NCBI GenBank assembly: GCA_902797185.1
Contig: CADBRV010000032.1
Coordinates: 1-64,000, forward strand
Direction: 5' to 3'
From: an uncultured Lachnospiraceae bacterium
GTDB lineage: Bacteria > Bacillota > Clostridia > Lachnospirales > Lachnospiraceae
Length of the DNA: 64,000 nt
Shown here: piece by piece, positions 12,902-56,450 of the stretch
Position numbering within the stretch: the first letter of the stretch is position 1
Layout of the letters: every line of letters begins with the position of its first letter
Notes under the pieces: generated by a model
What the model was told of the DNA's origin: nothing
Database searches by the model: none
Seen by the model: the letters and a program-made list of their open reading frames with translations, nothing else
Program-made: the position numbers and the translations under genes

Positions 12902-15355
12902 TTATTCCATTACAGGTTCAAATACAATTTCTTTTTTCTTTACACGGATATTGACTTCCTGCCCCTGTTTCACATGGCCAGCCAAAATTTCCTGGGCCAG
13001 CGGGTCTTCTACAAGGGTCTGGATCATCCTCTTTAACGGGCGGGCGCCATATTTCACGTCATACGAACGGTCCACCAGCTCCTTTTTGACGCTGCCTGTC
13101 ACATTCAAGGTGATATGCATCTGCTCTTTGCAGCGTTTCTCCAAATCCTTCATCTGCAGGGTGACGATCTTCTTCATGTCTTCCTTGCTTAAAGGATGGA
13201 ATACCAGGATCTCGTCAATCCGGTTTAAAAATTCCGGCTTAAAGATCCGCTGGACTTCTTCCATGACTGCGCCCTTCATCCTGTCATAATCAGCCGCCTC
13301 GTTCTCCTGCTGGGCGCCAAATCCAAGCTTTTTCGGGTCCACGATATGCTTTGCACCTGCATTGGAGGTCATGATGATGATGGTATTTTTGAAATCCACC
13401 TTCCGCCCCTGGGAGTCCGTGATATGCCCGTCATCGAGCACCTGCAGCAGGATGTTGAAAACGTCCGGATGGGCTTTTTCGATTTCATCAAACAGCACTA
13501 CCGAGTATGGGTTCCGCCGTACTTTCTCGCTGAGCTGGCCGCTTTCCTCGTATCCTACATAGCCTGGAGGGGAGCCGATCATTTTGGAAACGCTGTGCTT
13601 TTCCATATATTCGGACATGTCCACCCGGATCATGGCGGATTCATCCCCGAACATGGCCTGGGCCAGGGCTTTGGAAAGCTCTGTCTTTCCTACGCCGGTG
13701 GGTCCTAAGAAAAGGAAGGAGCCAATCGGCCTGTTGGGGTCTTTTAAGCCTATACGGCCTCTCTTTACCGCTTTTGCTACAGCGGATACTGCCTCATCCT
13801 GGCCGATGACCCTCTGGTGCAGCACTTTTTCCAGGTTCAGGAGCCTCTTGGATTCTGCCTGGGAAACCTGGTTGGCGGGGATCCCGGTCCACTGGGAAAT
13901 GACCTTGGAAATCTCCTTTTCGGTAACTTCCGCTTTCCTTCTCTCCTGCTTCCTCTGGTCCTTTTTTTTCTGGGTATCCAGCTCTTCCTGCAGGGCATCC
14001 TTTTCTTTTTTCAGCCTGGACGCTTTCTCCAGCTGCCCGTTCGAAAGTGCTTCTTCCAGCTGCCCCATGATGTTTTTGATCTGTTTTTCCTTTTCCTTGG
14101 TCTCGGAAACGGAAAATCCTCCCAGGCGGACCAAAGCGGCAGCCTCGTCCATGACGTCTAATGCCTTGTCCGGAAGGAAACGGTCATTGATATACCGTTC
14201 GGACAGCTGGACCGCGGCATGGACTGCCTCATCGGTGATTTTTACGCGATGGTGTGCCTCATAGCCCGGACGGAGCCCTTTCAGGATCTCCTCCGTCTCT
14301 TCCTTGGAAGGCTCTTCCACCATGACCGGCTGGAAACGGCGCTCCAGGGCGGCATCTTTTTCAATATATTTCCGGTACTCCGCTATGGTGGTGGCGCCGA
14401 TCAGCTGGATTTCCCCTCTGGAAAGGGAAGGCTTTAAGATATTGGATGCGTCCAAAGAGCCTTCCGCAGAGCCCGCGCCAACCATGGTATGGATCTCGTC
14501 GATAAAAAGCAGGATGTTGCCGGAGCGGGACACCTCGGAAACGACATTTTTAATCCTTTCCTCGAATTCGCCCCTGTATTTCGAGCCTGCCACCATGGCA
14601 GATAAATCCAGCGACATAAGCCTTTTCCCCCGGATCGGGGCGGGCACTTCATCCCTGGCAATCCTCTGCGCCAGCCCTTCCGTAATGGCAGTCTTGCCTA
14701 CCCCCGGCTCGCCGATGAGGCAGGGGTTGTTCTTGGTCTTCCGGCAGAGGATCTGGATGACACGGTCGATTTCCTTTTCCCTCCCGATGATAGGGTCCAT
14801 CTTCCCTTCCCTGGCCAGTTTCGTCATATCACGGGAATACTGGTCCAAAGTAGGGGTAGATGATTTCTCTTCTGAAGCGCCCTTTTTCAAATCATCTTTA
14901 TGGTCAGCAGGGCGCTCCCCTTTCTGAAGCAGGAATTTGGTATAGATTTCCTGGACATTGACCCCCATCGTAGCCAAAAGGCGGTGGGCGGCGCAGTCTG
15001 GCCGCAGGATCAGGGCGGCCAAAAGATGCTCTGTGCCTGCCTGGGAATCCTGGTACCGTTCTGCCAGTTCCTGTGCCTTCTCTTTTACTTCTTCCAGGCG
15101 CGGGGAATATTCCAGAGGATGCGTACTATCCTCAAAAGGCAGGTTTTTATCCAACGCGATCAGGTCTTCAATCAGGTCCAGGATCTTCGCGCTGTCTACC
15201 TTCTGCTCCTTTAAAAGGATGGATGCAATCCCTCCTTCCTCCTTGGACAGCCCATAAAGAAGGTGTTCCGTACCCACATAGGTATGGCCGGCACTTTTAG
15301 CGGTATGCACGGCAATGGAAAACGCCTTCTGCGCATTCTTTGTAAATTCTTTCAT
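12902..15355 (-). CDS. clpC: ATP-dependent Clp protease ATP-binding subunit ClpC
   Basis: An 817-residue Hsp100 unfoldase that feeds ClpP and acts in protein turnover. Two N-terminal Clp repeats (1-145) precede the first AAA+ domain with GEPGVGKTA. A ClpC-type middle coiled segment rich in Glu/Lys follows (about 410-475), then the second AAA+ domain with GPTGVGKTE and MSEYMEKHSVS. The length is typical. GGAGGATTAG precedes the ATG. It is preceded by a GntR regulator gene 35 bases away rather than by ctsR-mcsA-mcsB. Confidence 0.95.
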   Translation of the reverse strand: MKEFTKNAQKAFSIAVHTAKSAGHTYVGTEHLLYGLSKEEGGIASILLKEQKVDSAKILDLIEDLIALDKNLPFEDSTHPLEYSPRLEEVKEKAQELAERYQDSQAGTEHLLAALILRPDCAAHRLLATMGVNVQEIYTKFLLQKGERPADHKDDLKKGASEEKSSTPTLDQYSRDMTKLAREGKMDPIIGREKEIDRVIQILCRKTKNNPCLIGEPGVGKTAITEGLAQRIARDEVPAPIRGKRLMSLDLSAMVAGSKYRGEFEERIKNVVSEVSRSGNILLFIDEIHTMVGAGSAEGSLDASNILKPSLSRGEIQLIGATTIAEYRKYIEKDAALERRFQPVMVEEPSKEETEEILKGLRPGYEAHHRVKITDEAVHAAVQLSERYINDRFLPDKALDVMDEAAALVRLGGFSVSETKEKEKQIKNIMGQLEEALSNGQLEKASRLKKEKDALQEELDTQKKKDQRKQERRKAEVTEKEISKVISQWTGIPANQVSQAESKRLLNLEKVLHQRVIGQDEAVSAVAKAVKRGRIGLKDPNRPIGSFLFLGPTGVGKTELSKALAQAMFGDESAMIRVDMSEYMEKHSVSKMIGSPPGYVGYEESGQLSEKVRRNPYSVVLFDEIEKAHPDVFNILLQVLDDGHITDSQGRKVDFKNTIIIMTSNAGAKHIVDPKKLGFGAQQENEAADYDRMKGAVMEEVQRIFKPEFLNRIDEILVFHPLSKEDMKKIVTLQMKDLEKRCKEQMHITLNVTGSVKKELVDRSYDVKYGARPLKRMIQTLVEDPLAQEILAGHVKQGQEVNIRVKKKEIVFEPVME

Positions 15356-15390
15356 ATATAGCTAATCCTCCAGATAAATGCAGGCGCGAG

Positions 15391-15786
15391 TCAGTCTTCC
15401 TGCCCGCCGCATTCCGAGTCATCATACTGGCTGTAAGCCTGGTCCACAAGGCCGTGGATTTCATCCGCGGTAATCCCCCTGCAGCGGGCCTCGGCCAAAA
15501 TAATGTCCAGTTCCTGCTGTACTTCCTCCAGGGCTTTCAGATGGTCCACGTCCACATCCACCACGGCGCCCTTCCTACGGTCCAGTTTAATAAAACCTTC
15601 CTGTTTCAGCAAGGAGTATGTCTTATTCACCGTATGCATGTTGATGCCGATCTCTTCCGCCAGGGAACGGACGGAAGGGAGCGGGTCGCCATCCTGCAGC
15701 TGCTGCGTGGCAATCCCCATGATAATCTGGTTCCGAAGCTGGATATAAAAGGCTTCATCACTGTTAAAATCAATTTCAATATACAT
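15391..15786 (-). CDS. GntR-family transcriptional regulator, YtrA type
   Basis: 131 residues. The N-terminal winged helix-turn-helix (about 10-75) has the GntR pattern YIQLRNQI, GDPLPSVRSLAEE and NMHTVNKTYSLL. Only a short helical C-terminal tail follows, with no ligand domain, as in the YtrA subfamily. The start at 15786 has AGGAGG seven bases upstream; an in-frame start at 15984 would run through the intergenic repeat and is rejected. It leads the clpC operon and could control it. YtrA-type regulators often govern ABC transporters, but none is adjacent here. Confidence 0.88.
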   Translation of the reverse strand: MYIEIDFNSDEAFYIQLRNQIIMGIATQQLQDGDPLPSVRSLAEEIGINMHTVNKTYSLLKQEGFIKLDRRKGAVVDVDVDHLKALEEVQQELDIILAEARCRGITADEIHGLVDQAYSQYDDSECGGQED

Positions 15787-15817
15787 AAAGAAGCCTCCTT
15801 TCTCATCTGTTCTACAT

Positions 15818-15823
15818 ATTATA
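15818..15823 (-). promoter_or_regulatory. Likely -10 box of the GntR-clpC operon
   Basis: TATAAT read on the minus strand, 32 bases upstream of the regulator start. The hexamer 17 bases upstream (TGGAAG) is a poor -35, so the promoter may need an activator or use another start point. Confidence 0.45.
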
Positions 15824-15886
15824 ACACAGAAGAAGGGGCTCTTCCAGTACGGAGCCGTCCCTGGCCGCAGGAAAATGTGCCCATCA

Positions 15887-16001
15887 GGAGGGCCTGCGTC
15901 ATCACCCTGCGAAGCGATGACATCGCGGGAGAGCCACGCCATGCAGATTCGCACTTCGTGCGAAGGCGCGCCCTGCGTCATCACCCTGCGGGTGATGACA
16001 T
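15887..16001 (-). repeat. Intergenic module B, one full and one partial copy
   Basis: The full copy (15927-16001, minus orientation) has the typical two hairpins: GCCACGCC paired with GGCGCGCC around GCACTTCGTGC, then TCATCACC/GGTGATGA. A partial copy of the second hairpin lies at 15887-15925. The element fills the divergent region between the GntR gene and the small membrane protein gene. Confidence 0.8.
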
Positions 16002-16023
16002 TATAATCCCATTGCGCTATAAT
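15995..16023 (+). promoter_or_regulatory. Promoter of the 79-residue protein, with -35 inside a repeat
   Basis: ATGACA (15995-16000), 17 bases, TATAAT (16018-16023). The -35 hexamer is the closing arm of the module B hairpin (GGTGATGACA), so the repeat seems to have supplied half the promoter. The start codon is 33 bases downstream. Confidence 0.7.
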
Positions 16024-16056
16024 CGTCCTAGATTATTTTCACAGGAGGCCTGAAAA

Positions 16057-16296
16057 ATGAAACTGGTGAAACGGATCCTTGCCATCTGCGGCATCATCTT
16101 CCTTGTGGCAATGTATGCATCCACCCTGGTTTTTGCCATTATCGGCAACCCGAAAACCATGGGCATGTTCAAAGCCTCCATCTTTGCTACTTTCATCATC
16201 CCTGTCCTGATCTGGGCTTATACTTTTATCTACAAACTGATCAAAGACCGCTTCCAGGATGACGGGGCGCAGGACGAGGACGAATCCTCCCGCTGA
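16057..16296 (+). CDS. Small membrane protein, unknown function
   Basis: 79 residues with two predicted membrane segments (about 7-28 and 40-61), a GNPKTMGMFKA link between them, and a charged acidic tail (DDGAQDEDESS). ACAGGAGG lies eight bases before the ATG and a good promoter lies upstream. A plus-strand terminator at 16449-16479 would end its transcript, so it is a stand-alone gene. I do not recognise a named family. Confidence 0.75.
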   Translation: MKLVKRILAICGIIFLVAMYASTLVFAIIGNPKTMGMFKASIFATFIIPVLIWAYTFIYKLIKDRFQDDGAQDEDESSR

Positions 16297-16321
16297 AGCG
16301 GGCCTCTCCTTACGATAAAAG

Positions 16322-16399
16322 GCGGGAAAGCCGCGCCATGAAAGATCACGCTTTGCGTGAGGGCGCGGCCTGCGTCACCGCCTTGCCAGGCGATGACAG
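16322..16399 (-). repeat. Intergenic module B copy
   Basis: Minus-orientation copy with stem GCCGCGCC/GGCGCGGC around ATCACGCTTTGCGTGA and a second hairpin CACCGCC/GGCGATG. It lies between the small membrane protein gene and the purA terminator. Confidence 0.8.
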
Positions 16400-16406
16400 A
16401 TAGACG

Positions 16407-16443
16407 AAAAGCCGCTATACACTTTACCTGTATAACGGCTTTC
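16407..16443 (-). terminator. purA terminator
   Basis: AAAAGCCG(C/T)TATACA pairs with TGTATA(A)CGGCTTT in a stem of about 15 bp, with a TTTT run on the minus strand. It lies 58 bases past the purA stop codon. Confidence 0.75.
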
Positions 16444-16448
16444 CTTTT

Positions 16449-16479
16449 CAGGCCGGTCCTTCCGGCCTGTTTCTTTTTT
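16449..16479 (+). terminator. Terminator of the 79-residue protein gene
   Basis: CAGGCCGG and CCGGCCTG form a perfect 8-bp stem around a 5-base loop, followed by TTTCTTTTTT on the plus strand. It is back-to-back with the purA terminator. Confidence 0.8.
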
Positions 16480-16500
16480 CTACCAGCGCAGCATCATTAT

Positions 16501-17784
16501 TTATTTGTTACGGTAAATGATGTCGCTCCTGCCCGGCCCATTGGAAATCATGGTAATCGGGTATCCAATCTGGGATTCGATAAATTCGATGTAATCACGG
16601 CATTTCTGAGGCAGGTCTTCATATTTCTTAATCCCGCGGATATCACATTTCCAGCCCGGGAATACCTTGTATACCGGCTTGCACCTCTTCAGGTCCTTCG
16701 TAACCGGGAATTCGGTAATTTCTTTCCCGTCCAGTTCATATGCAACGCAGACAGGGATTTCATCCAGATATCCCAACGCATCTACTACGGTAAATGCCAC
16801 ATCGGTAGCGCCCTGGAGACGGCATCCGTATTTGGATGCAACGCAGTCATACCAGCCAACCCTCCTGGGCCTTCCGGTGGTAGCGCCGTATTCGCCGCCG
16901 TCACCGCCGTGGTTCCTGAGGGATTCTGCCTCATCGCCAAAGATCTCGGATACAAATTCCCCTGCACCTACAGCGGAAGAATATGCCTTGGAAACAACCA
17001 CGATCTTCTGGATCTCATAGGGCGGGATGCCTGCGCCGATGGCGCCATAAGCAGCCAGTGGGGAGGACGATGTAACCATCGGGTAAATACCATGGTCCGG
17101 ATCCTTCATGGTGCCCAGCTGCCCTTCCAGAAGGGCAGTCTTGCCTTCCTTGAGGGCCTTGTCCAGATACAGGGAAACGTTGCCCAGATACGGTTCTACT
17201 TTTTCACGTTCTTCCTTGATCCACTTAAGGAGCCCCTGCCTGTCAATGGGGTCTGTATGGTAAAGGTTCTTCAGGAGCACGTCCTTCTGGTCCGCGATCC
17301 GGTTGATCTTTTCCATCAGCACGTCATCATCCTGGAAGAATTCGTTTACCTGCCAGCCGATCTTTGCGTATTTATCGGAATAAAACGGCGCGATGCCGGA
17401 CTTGGTGGAACCGAAGGACTTGCCTGCCAGCCTTGCCTCTTCAAGGGAATCAAACAAAACATGGTAAGGCATCATCACCTGTACCCTGTCGGAAACCATG
17501 AGCTGTGGCTTTGGCACCCCTTTGGAAACAATGTCCTGGATTTCCTTGCCGAATTTTTCTATATCAAATGCCATCCCGTTTCCTACGATGTTCATGATGT
17601 TTTCATGGAAAACACCGGAAGGGAGGGTATGGAGTGCGAACTTTCCATATTTATTGACAATGGTATGGCCGGCGTTTGCACCGCCCTGGAAACGGATTAC
17701 GATATCCGCGTCTTCCGCCAGCATATCGGTAATCTTACCCTTGCCTTCATCTCCCCAATTGGCACCAACAACTGCTTTTACCAT
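16501..17784 (-). CDS. purA: Adenylosuccinate synthetase
   Basis: A 427-residue enzyme that joins IMP and aspartate with GTP on the route to AMP. The P-loop GDEGKGK is at residues 11-17 with Asp12 as the expected base. FQGGANAGHT follows, and RRVGWYD and the C-terminal NGPGRSD guanine-recognition region are present. GGAGGAACAATTT precedes the ATG. It lies 71 bases after the thioesterase gene in the same direction. purL in this window belongs to the same pathway but is transcribed separately. Confidence 0.96.
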   Translation of the reverse strand: MVKAVVGANWGDEGKGKITDMLAEDADIVIRFQGGANAGHTIVNKYGKFALHTLPSGVFHENIMNIVGNGMAFDIEKFGKEIQDIVSKGVPKPQLMVSDRVQVMMPYHVLFDSLEEARLAGKSFGSTKSGIAPFYSDKYAKIGWQVNEFFQDDDVLMEKINRIADQKDVLLKNLYHTDPIDRQGLLKWIKEEREKVEPYLGNVSLYLDKALKEGKTALLEGQLGTMKDPDHGIYPMVTSSSPLAAYGAIGAGIPPYEIQKIVVVSKAYSSAVGAGEFVSEIFGDEAESLRNHGGDGGEYGATTGRPRRVGWYDCVASKYGCRLQGATDVAFTVVDALGYLDEIPVCVAYELDGKEITEFPVTKDLKRCKPVYKVFPGWKCDIRGIKKYEDLPQKCRDYIEFIESQIGYPITMISNGPGRSDIIYRNK

Positions 17785-30504: not shown

Positions 30505-30722
30505 CGGATCCCTTACGATGCATCAGCCGCATTGTCCGCCGTCTTGCCTGTAAGGCGATGACGCAGGCCACGCCTCCGCACAAAGTGCGGCTTATGATGG
30601 CGTGGCCCTCCTCTTTTATATATCTCGCCTGTAAGGCAGTGACATAGGCCACGCCCTCGCGCAAAGCGTGGCTTTTCATGGCGCGGCTCCCCTGAAAGAA
30701 GATTTGGAATGCGGCGTCTGTC
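30505..30722 (+). repeat. Mosaic intergenic element, partial A plus two B plus C
   Basis: Order on the plus strand: end of module A (GGATCCCTTACGATGCATC near 30507), two B copies (30537-30612 and 30622-30692) and module C (GATTTGGAATGCGGCGTCTG, 30701-30720). Both B copies have GCCACGCC paired with GGCGTGGC or GGCGCGGC. It lies upstream of the recA promoter. Confidence 0.8.
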
Positions 30723-30852
30723 TTATTATCAACAACTGGAAATACCTGCAGGAACACAGGAAAAGATATTTCATAAGATAGAGACATTATAAAAATACCT
30801 TTCCCGCCCTGTCAACCGGAAAACAATATCTCTTTCCCGAAAGCGATAGAAC

Positions 30853-35230: not shown

Positions 35231-35317
35231 ATCGTACGGAGGAGCCCGCTTCAGTGGGAGGGTCCCTTGCGATACACTGGCCGCATCCTCCGGAGGACGA
35301 TTTGGAATACGGTCCGG
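35231..35317 (+). repeat. Intergenic element with modules A and C but no B
   Basis: Module A (ATCGTACGGAGGAGCCCGCT...GGGTCCCTTGCGATAC) runs straight through GCCGCATCCTCC into module C (GGAGGACGATTTGGAATACGG). In other copies module B sits exactly at this junction. It lies between the beta-CASP gene and aroC. Confidence 0.78.
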
Positions 35318-37534: not shown

Positions 37535-37690
37535 TATGTCATCACCCAAAGGATGATGACGCAGGCCACGCCCACGCACGAAGTGCACCTTTCCATGGCG
37601 TGGCTCTCCGTTTTTACATGCCATCACCCCAAAGGCAATGACTCCGATCACGCCCGCTTACGCAGCGCGCTTTATAATCGCACGTCTCTC
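37535..37690 (+). repeat. Two tandem copies of intergenic module B
   Basis: First copy 37535-37608 (TGTCATCACC/GGATGATGAC, then GCCACGCC/GGCGTGGC around CGCACGAAGTGC). Second copy 37617-37690 (CCATCACCCC/GGCAATGAC, CACGCCCGC...GCGCGC). The second copy ends directly at the hemW stop codon. Confidence 0.8.
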
Positions 37691-38875
37691 CTAAACTGAA
37701 TCAATCAAAAATTCGGAAAAAACATAATTGCTGACATCTATGCCTTTTCCGGTAAGGAAGATCCTGCCCTCTTTCTTTTCCAGCAGCCCTTCTTCCCGCA
37801 GGCGCGCCATCACATCGCCGTATATTACTTCCGAATCCCTGCCAAAATTCTCAGTAAAATCTGAAATATAGACTCCTTCCATCCGCCGAAGGCCTAGGAA
37901 CATAAATTCCTCCATCTGCTCTTTGACGGACAGGGCACGTTTTTCCACATCGGGCAGATGCCCCTCTGAAAGAGGAGTGATATAATCCTCCATCTCCCGG
38001 GGATTGTCCCATCTTTCTTCCCCTACAAGGGAAGAAGCGCCCAGGCCGCAGCCTATGTAAGGGTACCTTTGCCAGTACCCGTTATTATGGACGCTTTCAA
38101 ATCCCTCTTTTGCGTAATTGGATATTTCATAATGATGGTAGCCGGCTTCCCGGAGCATCTGGCCGGTCATGGCATACATGGACCGTTCCAGTTCCTCGGA
38201 GGGCAGATGCAGCGGCTCTTCGCCCCGCTCCCTGCGCTCCTCGTCTTCCCCGTAAAGCTCGTAGAATGGCGTGCCTTCTTCAATAATAAGCCCATAGCAG
38301 GACAAATGGGGCGTCCGCAGGCGCAGCACCCTTGTGAGGGTCTCTTCCCACATCTCCAGGCTCTGTCCCGGGATCCCGCACATCAGGTCAATATTGATAT
38401 TGTCGAATCCCGCTTTCCTGCAGAGGGTATAAGATTCCAGGAACTTATGATAGGTATGGATCCTGCCAAGATGCGCAAGAAGCTCGTCATGGGTCTCCTG
38501 CAGCCCCATGCTGATGCGGTTTATGCCGCATCTGGCATAGGCCTTTGCTTTTGCCTCGTTCACCATGCCGGGATTCACCTCGATGGTAACCTCCGTATTG
38601 GGCTGCACCGGGTATTCCTGCTGTACCAGGTCCATGGTCCTTTCGATCTGTTCGGAAAGGAGGTAGGAAGGGGTGCCGCCCCCGATATAAACGGAACGGA
38701 GCCTTTTCCCTGCCGCCTCCCCTTTCCGCAGGGAAATCTCCTTCCTGAGGGCATCCATGTAGGATTCCATCTGGGAAAAGGTGGCGGGGGCGGAGAGAAA
38801 GTCGCAGTATGCGCATTTGCGTTTGCAGAATGGGATATGGATATAAAGCTGGATTTCACTGTCTGTCGTTTTCAT
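37691..38875 (-). CDS. hemW: Radical SAM heme chaperone HemW
   Basis: 394 residues. The radical SAM cysteines are Cys17, Cys21 and Cys24 (CKRKCAYC). GGGTPSYL follows, then INRISMGLQE and an HemN-like C-terminal domain. The short length, and the lack of the extra N-terminal region of true oxygen-independent coproporphyrinogen oxidase, point to HemW, a heme carrier. Its ATG directly follows the lepA stop codon (TAAATG). The lepA-hemW pair is common in Firmicutes; hrcA, which often follows, is absent. Confidence 0.92.
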   Translation of the reverse strand: MKTTDSEIQLYIHIPFCKRKCAYCDFLSAPATFSQMESYMDALRKEISLRKGEAAGKRLRSVYIGGGTPSYLLSEQIERTMDLVQQEYPVQPNTEVTIEVNPGMVNEAKAKAYARCGINRISMGLQETHDELLAHLGRIHTYHKFLESYTLCRKAGFDNINIDLMCGIPGQSLEMWEETLTRVLRLRTPHLSCYGLIIEEGTPFYELYGEDEERRERGEEPLHLPSEELERSMYAMTGQMLREAGYHHYEISNYAKEGFESVHNNGYWQRYPYIGCGLGASSLVGEERWDNPREMEDYITPLSEGHLPDVEKRALSVKEQMEEFMFLGLRRMEGVYISDFTENFGRDSEVIYGDVMARLREEGLLEKKEGRIFLTGKGIDVSNYVFSEFLIDSV

Positions 38876-42113: not shown

Positions 42114-42282
42114 GATCGTAAGGAGGGACCCGCGCCAGCGGAAGGATCCCTTGCGATGCACTAGCCGCATCATCTCATGTCACCGTCTGTTAAGGCGGTG
42201 ACGCAGGCCGCGCCTCCGCACGAAGTGCGGTTTATAATGGCGCGGCTCTCCTTGAGGACGATTGGGAATGCGGCGTCTGTCC
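42114..42282 (+). repeat. Full mosaic intergenic element A-B-C
   Basis: Module A (ATCGTAAGGAGGGACCCGCG...GATCCCTTGCGATG, 42115-42159), linker GCCGCATCATC, module B (42177-42250; stems CACCG/CGGTG and GCCGCGCC/GGCGCGGC around CGCACGAAGTGCG), then module C (GAGGACGATTGGGAATGCGG, to 42282). It separates the cobO start from the rpsT promoter. Confidence 0.85.
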
Positions 42283-42345
42283 ATTTAATTATAATATGGC
42301 GGCACGTTCCATGCAAACAGCCCTTATAAAAATCCTAAAATATTC

Positions 42346-48420: not shown

Positions 48421-48620
48421 ATCGTAAGCAGGAACCCGCTTTAGCGGGAGGATTCCTTACGATGTACGAGCCGCATCATCCTATGTCATCACCCCTTCGG
48501 GTGATGACATAGGCCACGCTTCCGCACGAAGTGCGTTCTATAATGGCGTGGCTCTCCTCTTTGCGCCGTCTCGCCTGACAAGGCGGTGGCATAGGACGAT
48601 TTGGAATGCGGCGTCTGTCC
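48421..48620 (+). repeat. Full mosaic intergenic element A-B-B'-C
   Basis: Module A (ATCGTAAGCAGGAACCCGCT...GGATTCCTTACGAT, 48421-48462), linker GCCGCATCATC, full B (48482-48558; TGTCATCACCCC/GGGTGATGACA is a perfect palindrome, then GCCACGC/GCGTGGC), a partial second B (48562-48590), and module C (GGACGATTTGGAATGCGG, ending 48620). It is the longest copy seen and is probably transcribed as part of the trxA leader. Confidence 0.85.
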
Positions 48621-48664
48621 TTTTTTTCAGGCAAGCCTTTGCCTGTAATGAATCACAAAATTTA

Positions 48665-56184: not shown

Positions 56185-56245
56185 GAAATTCCTTCTTTCT
56201 GGTGTAGGCTTTATGGGCTTTTCGGCATCTTATTCTTTTATCAAT

Positions 56246-56397
56246 TTCATCACCCGCAAGGTGGTGACAGAGGCTGCGCCCGCACAAGCAGTGTACTTTT
56301 TCATGGCGCGGCTCTCCCTTTCTATGTCATTGCCCGGAAGGCAATGACATAGGCCGCGCCACCGCACGCAGCGTGCTCTTTCTTGGTGCGGCTCTCT
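56246..56397 (+). repeat. Two tandem copies of intergenic module B
   Basis: First copy 56246-56315, second 56322-56397. The second has TGTCATTGCC/GGCAATGACA, a compensated version of the TGTCATCACC/GGTGATGACA stem seen elsewhere, and GCCGCGCC/GGTGCGGC. It lies between glgA and glgP. Confidence 0.82.
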
Positions 56398-56450
56398 TAC
56401 TATACAATGTGCCACCGCCCGCAAAGGAAGTGGCACACCGTCTTTGGCAT

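Follow-up and report, generated by a model that had tools for sequence, protein, structure and literature searches.

The locus

The window, by which we mean the whole 64-kb stretch of DNA that was analysed (contig C32), belongs to a genome of 2.30 Mb in 136 contigs, which is 98.97% complete. A gene for a GntR-type regulator and a gene for a membrane protein of 79 amino acids (79-aa gene) are transcribed divergently from the two sides of a repeat array, and another unit of the same repeat lies 3' of the 79-aa gene (Table 1). The named relatives of the 79-aa gene are from Lachnospiraceae, and no Pfam or NCBIfam family matched its product. The DNA directly after the repeat array, before the ATG at 16057, is TATAATCCCATTGCGCTATAAT.

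Table 1. Features around the repeat array, with positions in the window
Feature	Position	Strand	Evidence
Divergent GntR-type regulator gene	15391..15786	-	PF00392, 1.5e-11; start codon 15784-15786 by reading
Repeat array	15888..16001	+	Direct repeats, R1 matches, alignment with congener L071; left boundary uncertain by some 15 nt
Array part 1: truncated unit ending in B hairpin	about 15888-15923	+	Weak R1 match 15874-15924
Array part 2: full A+B unit	15928-16001	+	R1 match 15928-16002, 90.9 bits
Hairpin B, 10 bp, loop TGC	15977..15999	+	Sequence; helix covariation across 52 copies
-35-like hexamer ATGACA (3' arm of hairpin B + next A)	15995..16000	+	Sequence, promoter scan
First TATAAT, at repeat edge, probably ancestral -10	16002..16007	+	Aligned with L071 and L035
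Second TATAAT, -10 of proposed hybrid promoter	16018..16023	+	11/12 with ATGACA, 17-nt spacer
Ribosome-binding site AGGAGG	16043..16048	+	Sequence
79-aa membrane protein gene, conserved in family	16057..16296	+	Matches in 83/100 family genomes
Second A+B repeat unit, 3' of 79-aa gene	16325..16400	+	R1 match, 88.3 bits

We also observed two features at the outer sides of this region. A piece of a different repeat module (GAATCCTCCCGCTGAAGCGGG...CCTTACGAT; 16282-16319) codes for the final residues and the stop of the 79-aa gene (ESSR-stop). It is found again at 48435-48455, 42129-42149 and 35245-35265, and the congener orthologues of the protein have endings that differ from ESSR-stop. Near the GntR gene, TGTTCTACATATTATAACACA (15800-15830) is strongly conserved in the congener L071 and partially in the congener L035, and may be the promoter and self-operator of the GntR regulator.

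A high-copy repeat of two hairpins

The repeat unit is about 75 nt long and consists of hairpin A, a linker CTGC, hairpin B and then AT. Hairpin A has an outer stem GCCRCGCC/GGCGYGGC, an inner stem-loop and an unpaired CAT-A-rich stretch, and hairpin B has the form GTCAYCRCC.../...GGYGATGAC. A covariance model built from 18 copies (R1) found at least 150 copies in this genome (153 places among the matches listed), which confirms that the module named in the initial annotation is a repeat. R1 had no match in six congeners. When 299 genomes of the family were scanned, weaker matches (E <= 1e-6) were seen under stricter filters in 5 of the 298 others, the best being in G254 (10 among the matches listed) and G241 (3). 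The clearest matches in other genera keep the frame and linkers, with different stem sequences. Seven loci (L173, L178, L174, L179, L175, L180 and L177) are two-hairpin elements of this kind in other Lachnospiraceae genera, with the same frame and linkers and other stems.

Pairing of the hairpins is conserved. In a MAFFT alignment of 52 copies (46 from this genome and 6 from other genera), 94.7% of cells pair and two-sided changes occur in 19 of the 24 pairs, against 8.7 in shuffles, with 9 of the 10 pairs of hairpin B among them; the copies were hand-chosen and the model had found most rows, which may have biased these figures somewhat. Because the ATGAC arm covaries with its pairing partner, it is kept as part of a hairpin. 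The linker is CTGC in 33 and CTAC in 2 of the 46 own copies (GCAG or GTAG on the other strand), and the six copies from other genera have CTAC (3), CTGC (2) and GTAG (1).

A C module (GACGATGCGGCTAGTGCATCGTAAGG...) or an E module (GACAGACGCCGCATTCCAAATCGTCCT) often comes after the A+B unit, and composite arrays lie at 30538-30727, 37535-37704, 42115-42286, 48421-48624 and 56243-56407. The family is thus a mosaic in which several hairpin modules are combined. Rfam covariance models had no match in 15000-17000 up to E 1, which ruled out a known RNA family there, and one core pattern of the repeat had no exact match in viral_contigs, on which basis viral carriage was rejected. A literature search for the two-hairpin repeat found no published description.

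A candidate promoter with its -35 region in the repeat

The initial annotation proposed ATGACA-17-TATAAT as the promoter of the 79-aa gene and ATGACA as the last arm of the hairpin. The letters and coordinates are exact: the spacer is 16001-16017, and 33 nt separate the -10 from the ATG. Hairpin B is a perfect 10-bp stem, GTCATCACCC-TGC-GGGTGATGAC, of which ATGAC is the 3' end, and the last A of the hexamer is the base that follows. The annotation did not contain the other perfect TATAAT, at 16002-16007, which lies at the edge of the element.

We scanned for promoter-like sites with the sigma-A consensus, which was that of the scan tool together with general knowledge, the host's own preferences being assumed. 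Within 15790-16470, both strands included, ATGACA-17-TATAAT was alone in reaching 9/12 or more (shuffles gave a mean of 0.6 sites). In a wider scan before the 79-aa gene, the other 9/12 sites all paired the 16002 box with a -35 inside hairpin B. Six sites of at least 11/12 at a spacing of 16-18 nt are present on both strands of the 64-kb window. Upstream regions of orthologues were also scored by their best site within 150 nt, and 15 of 32 reached at least 10/12, against 4.2% of shuffles; L035 and L057 were kept in this set though they have no start codon within the search range. The -10 of these sites lies 24-74 nt from the start, and the site of the 79-aa gene scores 11/12 at 33 nt.

Since both TATAAT boxes (16002 and 16018) have their -35 region inside the repeat, the -35 region is repeat DNA with either of them. 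It is well supported, on the DNA sequence, that the promoter of the 79-aa gene takes its -35 region from this copy of the repeat: the site is the only strong one, the upstream neighbour is divergent, the distance from -10 to ATG is typical of orthologues, and the alignment with a congener described below agrees with it. The proposal that a repeat donates a -35 box is supported for this copy and fails for the family as a whole. One point against a hybrid promoter is that ATGACA sits in a strong palindrome, which might extrude or bind protein. The array together with the leader of the 79-aa gene folds more stably than shuffles (z -3.8), as palindromes do.

A probable insertion into an older promoter

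The congener L071 has a GntR-like gene before, and purA-like sequence after, its orthologue of the 79-aa gene. The distance from the GntR start codon to the ATG of the 79-aa gene is 270 nt in our genome, 156 nt when the 114-nt array is taken out, and 155 nt in L071. When the two flanks were joined without the array and aligned with L071, the score was above 1000 of 1000 shuffles. After removal of the conserved block on the GntR side, 11, 27 and 33 of 2000 shuffles reached the score in three settings, and in all three the TATAAT at 16002 fell on the TATAAT of L071. The L071 bases aligned to the 16018 box are TATGAC, and this box may be newer than the insertion. L035 has 13 of 14 nt in common from 16002 on (3 of 2000 shuffles; four congeners tried), with a gap of 244 nt, a length unlike the 155 nt of L071; the remaining three congeners gave no significant match from 16002 on. 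Without gaps, the 55 nt that precede the ATG showed no significant identity with L071 (17 identities, 28% of shuffles), and the right flank on its own was not significant in a further local alignment with L071 or with L035. With moderate confidence, we place the insertion of the array directly before a native -10.

The following history can be proposed. The high-copy repeat would have arrived as a short array between the native -35 and -10 of the 79-aa gene, at a point directly 5' of the native TATAAT (16002), and the native -35 would have been displaced more than 100 nt upstream. A hybrid promoter would then consist of ATGACA, the outer 3' arm of hairpin B, as -35 and the TATAAT at 16018 as -10, with a start near 16030, and we infer that the 16018 box arose or came under selection after the insertion. 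We consider it fairly probable that the array was inserted into the native promoter and that the hybrid promoter now drives the 79-aa gene.

The nearest alternative keeps the insertion and differs in the -10. The native TATAAT at 16002 would still be the working box, helped by a weak -35 in hairpin B (ATCACC or TCATCA) or by an activator, and the 16018 box would be incidental. It is the 16002 box that aligns with L071 and L035, and its distance of 49 nt to the ATG is equal to that in L071; against this, it reaches at best 9/12 and has no TG before the -10, while the 16018 site reaches 11/12. We regard this alternative as rather unlikely.

B ends do not donate -35 boxes in general

The initial annotation also held that every B copy ends in a TGACA-like arm and that insertion could make a promoter at any site with a -10 at a distance of 17 nt. 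We surveyed the B ends of copies in the retrieved stretches of the genome. Of 250 matches, a filter on length and core motif left 191, an overlap filter 177 and a similarity filter 176. The first part is mostly right, as 137 of the 176 copies differ from ATGACA at no more than one position and 94 match it exactly; TTGACA is absent from the commonest B-end forms listed. These 137 ends run into a C module (47), the next A hairpin (29), an E module (7) or unique DNA (54, of which 53 have enough flank).

The second part did not survive. An exact TATAAT lies 16-18 nt after only 1 of the 137 B ends, namely that of the 79-aa gene copy, and in the 53 unique flanks 0.24 was expected from an offset control and 0.07 from shuffles. 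A box matching at 5/6 occurs at this distance in 2 of the 53 (0.80 at other offsets, 1.00 in shuffles) and one matching at 4/6 in 5 of the 53 (3.7 and 4.2 in the controls). Thus, -10 boxes at 16-18 nt from B ends are not enriched among the 53 unique flanks over the offset and shuffle controls. One further copy, L166, reads ATGACA-17-TAAAGT with a TG before the -10 by eye, and it might be a weaker second case of a donated -35.

At least one exact TATAAT was reached in 18 of 300 shuffles, so the single exact box is by itself not far beyond chance. This leaves some room for a coincidence, in which the repeat is uninvolved and the 79-aa gene is served by some other, unrecognised promoter, one that lies within the array or is read by a different sigma factor. 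We find this improbable, because sigma-A-like sites are frequent close to the gene in orthologues, the gene is conserved in the family (Table 1), and no other strong site lies between the divergent genes. The idea that TGACA ends are kept as -35 boxes at many sites has the frequency of ATGACA ends in its favour and is very improbable, given that -10 boxes are not in excess, that the B arm covaries with its partner, that the relatives from other genera have GTGACA, GTCACA or AGGACA at their ends, and that so many B ends run into another module or the next unit; general promoter donation was rejected on the B-end survey. The family is not a promoter-donating device. The promoter role at the 79-aa gene looks like a one-off accident and not a general property of the repeat.

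Position of the repeats relative to genes

Gene context was taken from a simple longest-ORF caller that includes spurious ORFs (35 of 130 clusters fell 'inside' an ORF), and it was used for directional contrasts only. Where a neighbour could be called, its start was the end nearest the repeat in 92 of 119 clusters for the B side and in 54 of 116 for the A side. Of 130 last copies, 28 have a ribosome-binding site and a start codon with an open frame within 40 nt of the B end; the corresponding figure for the A side is 8 of 164 (Fisher P 2e-5; 6 of these 8 have an identical offset and could be an artefact), and that for random positions is 215 of 6000. The offsets from B end to start codon bunch at 13-28 nt (e.g., window 37535-37609). 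The usual orientation thus puts B on the side of the downstream gene, in many cases immediately 5' of a ribosome-binding site. At 13-28 nt the B end is too close to the start codon to act as a -35 for the adjoining gene, and copies so placed would be within the mRNA or overlap its start.

These positions bear on a broader view, in which the repeat is a branch of an undescribed two-hairpin class across Lachnospiraceae genera, marked by constant linkers and covarying stems, that acts in mRNA. Hairpin B would dock 13-28 nt before start codons and influence how the next cistron is processed, how stable it is or how it is translated. The rare insertions into promoters, such as that at the 79-aa gene, would reuse the same arm as a -35, and the landing site would set whether the role is in RNA or in a promoter. 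We offer this view tentatively and lean against it.

Comparison with known systems

The literature on repeats and hybrid promoters includes insertion-sequence cases. Among small palindromic repeats, GTAG- and CGTC-tagged REP elements, as described in PMC3733652, are also high-copy intergenic palindromes whose degenerate stems are kept by complementary changes. On the other strand, our repeat resembles them in a GYAG-like linker that stands before a stem containing an inner stem-loop; CGTC is also present, at the base of hairpin B. It differs in being a fixed two-hairpin unit in which the linker is mostly GCAG and GTC is paired, and REPs lie mostly near gene ends whereas here the B side faces gene starts. 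A CGTC REP is defined there by an unpaired CGTC tag, a stem of 8-9 bp starting with AT and a CCA tail (PMC3733652). Our element, in which the GTC of CGTC is paired and the end is ACAT, not CCA, was not assigned to this class. A Y1 transposase (PF01797) had no match in this genome, while 5 of 14 control genomes were positive; congener G101 has one, and G254 has two weak or partial matches. A REP mobilised by a RAYT was rejected on the absence of a Y1 match in this genome.

BOX elements of Streptococcus pneumoniae are likewise modular, and in the account of PMC3049150 they are transcribed as extensions of operons and reported to alter expression of neighbours. Compared by description, the order of modules differs from ours (PMC3049150). 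The present family can serve as a test case of how short hairpin repeats with no visible transposase spread to 150 or more sites within a single species, and of how such repeats come to sit tightly before ribosome-binding sites.

The closest likeness in mechanism, not in family, is to Correia repeat enclosed elements (CREE) of Neisseria, and we draw it from the CREE description in PMC2649163. In the 'Black promoter', the -35 and part of the -10 lie within the repeat end, and activity has been shown at several genes; some CREE copies are also transcribed and processed by RNase III (PMC2649163). In both systems a small high-copy palindromic repeat has a -35 in its gene-proximal end and flanking DNA completes the promoter, an arrangement that the sequence displays at 15995-16023. 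Unlike CREE (PMC2649163), only the -35 lies inside the repeat here, in one case known from sequence. If the promoter is real, it would be a clean natural case, from outside Neisseria, in which a small non-coding repeat has taken the place of half a promoter, and a congener seems to keep the empty site for comparison.
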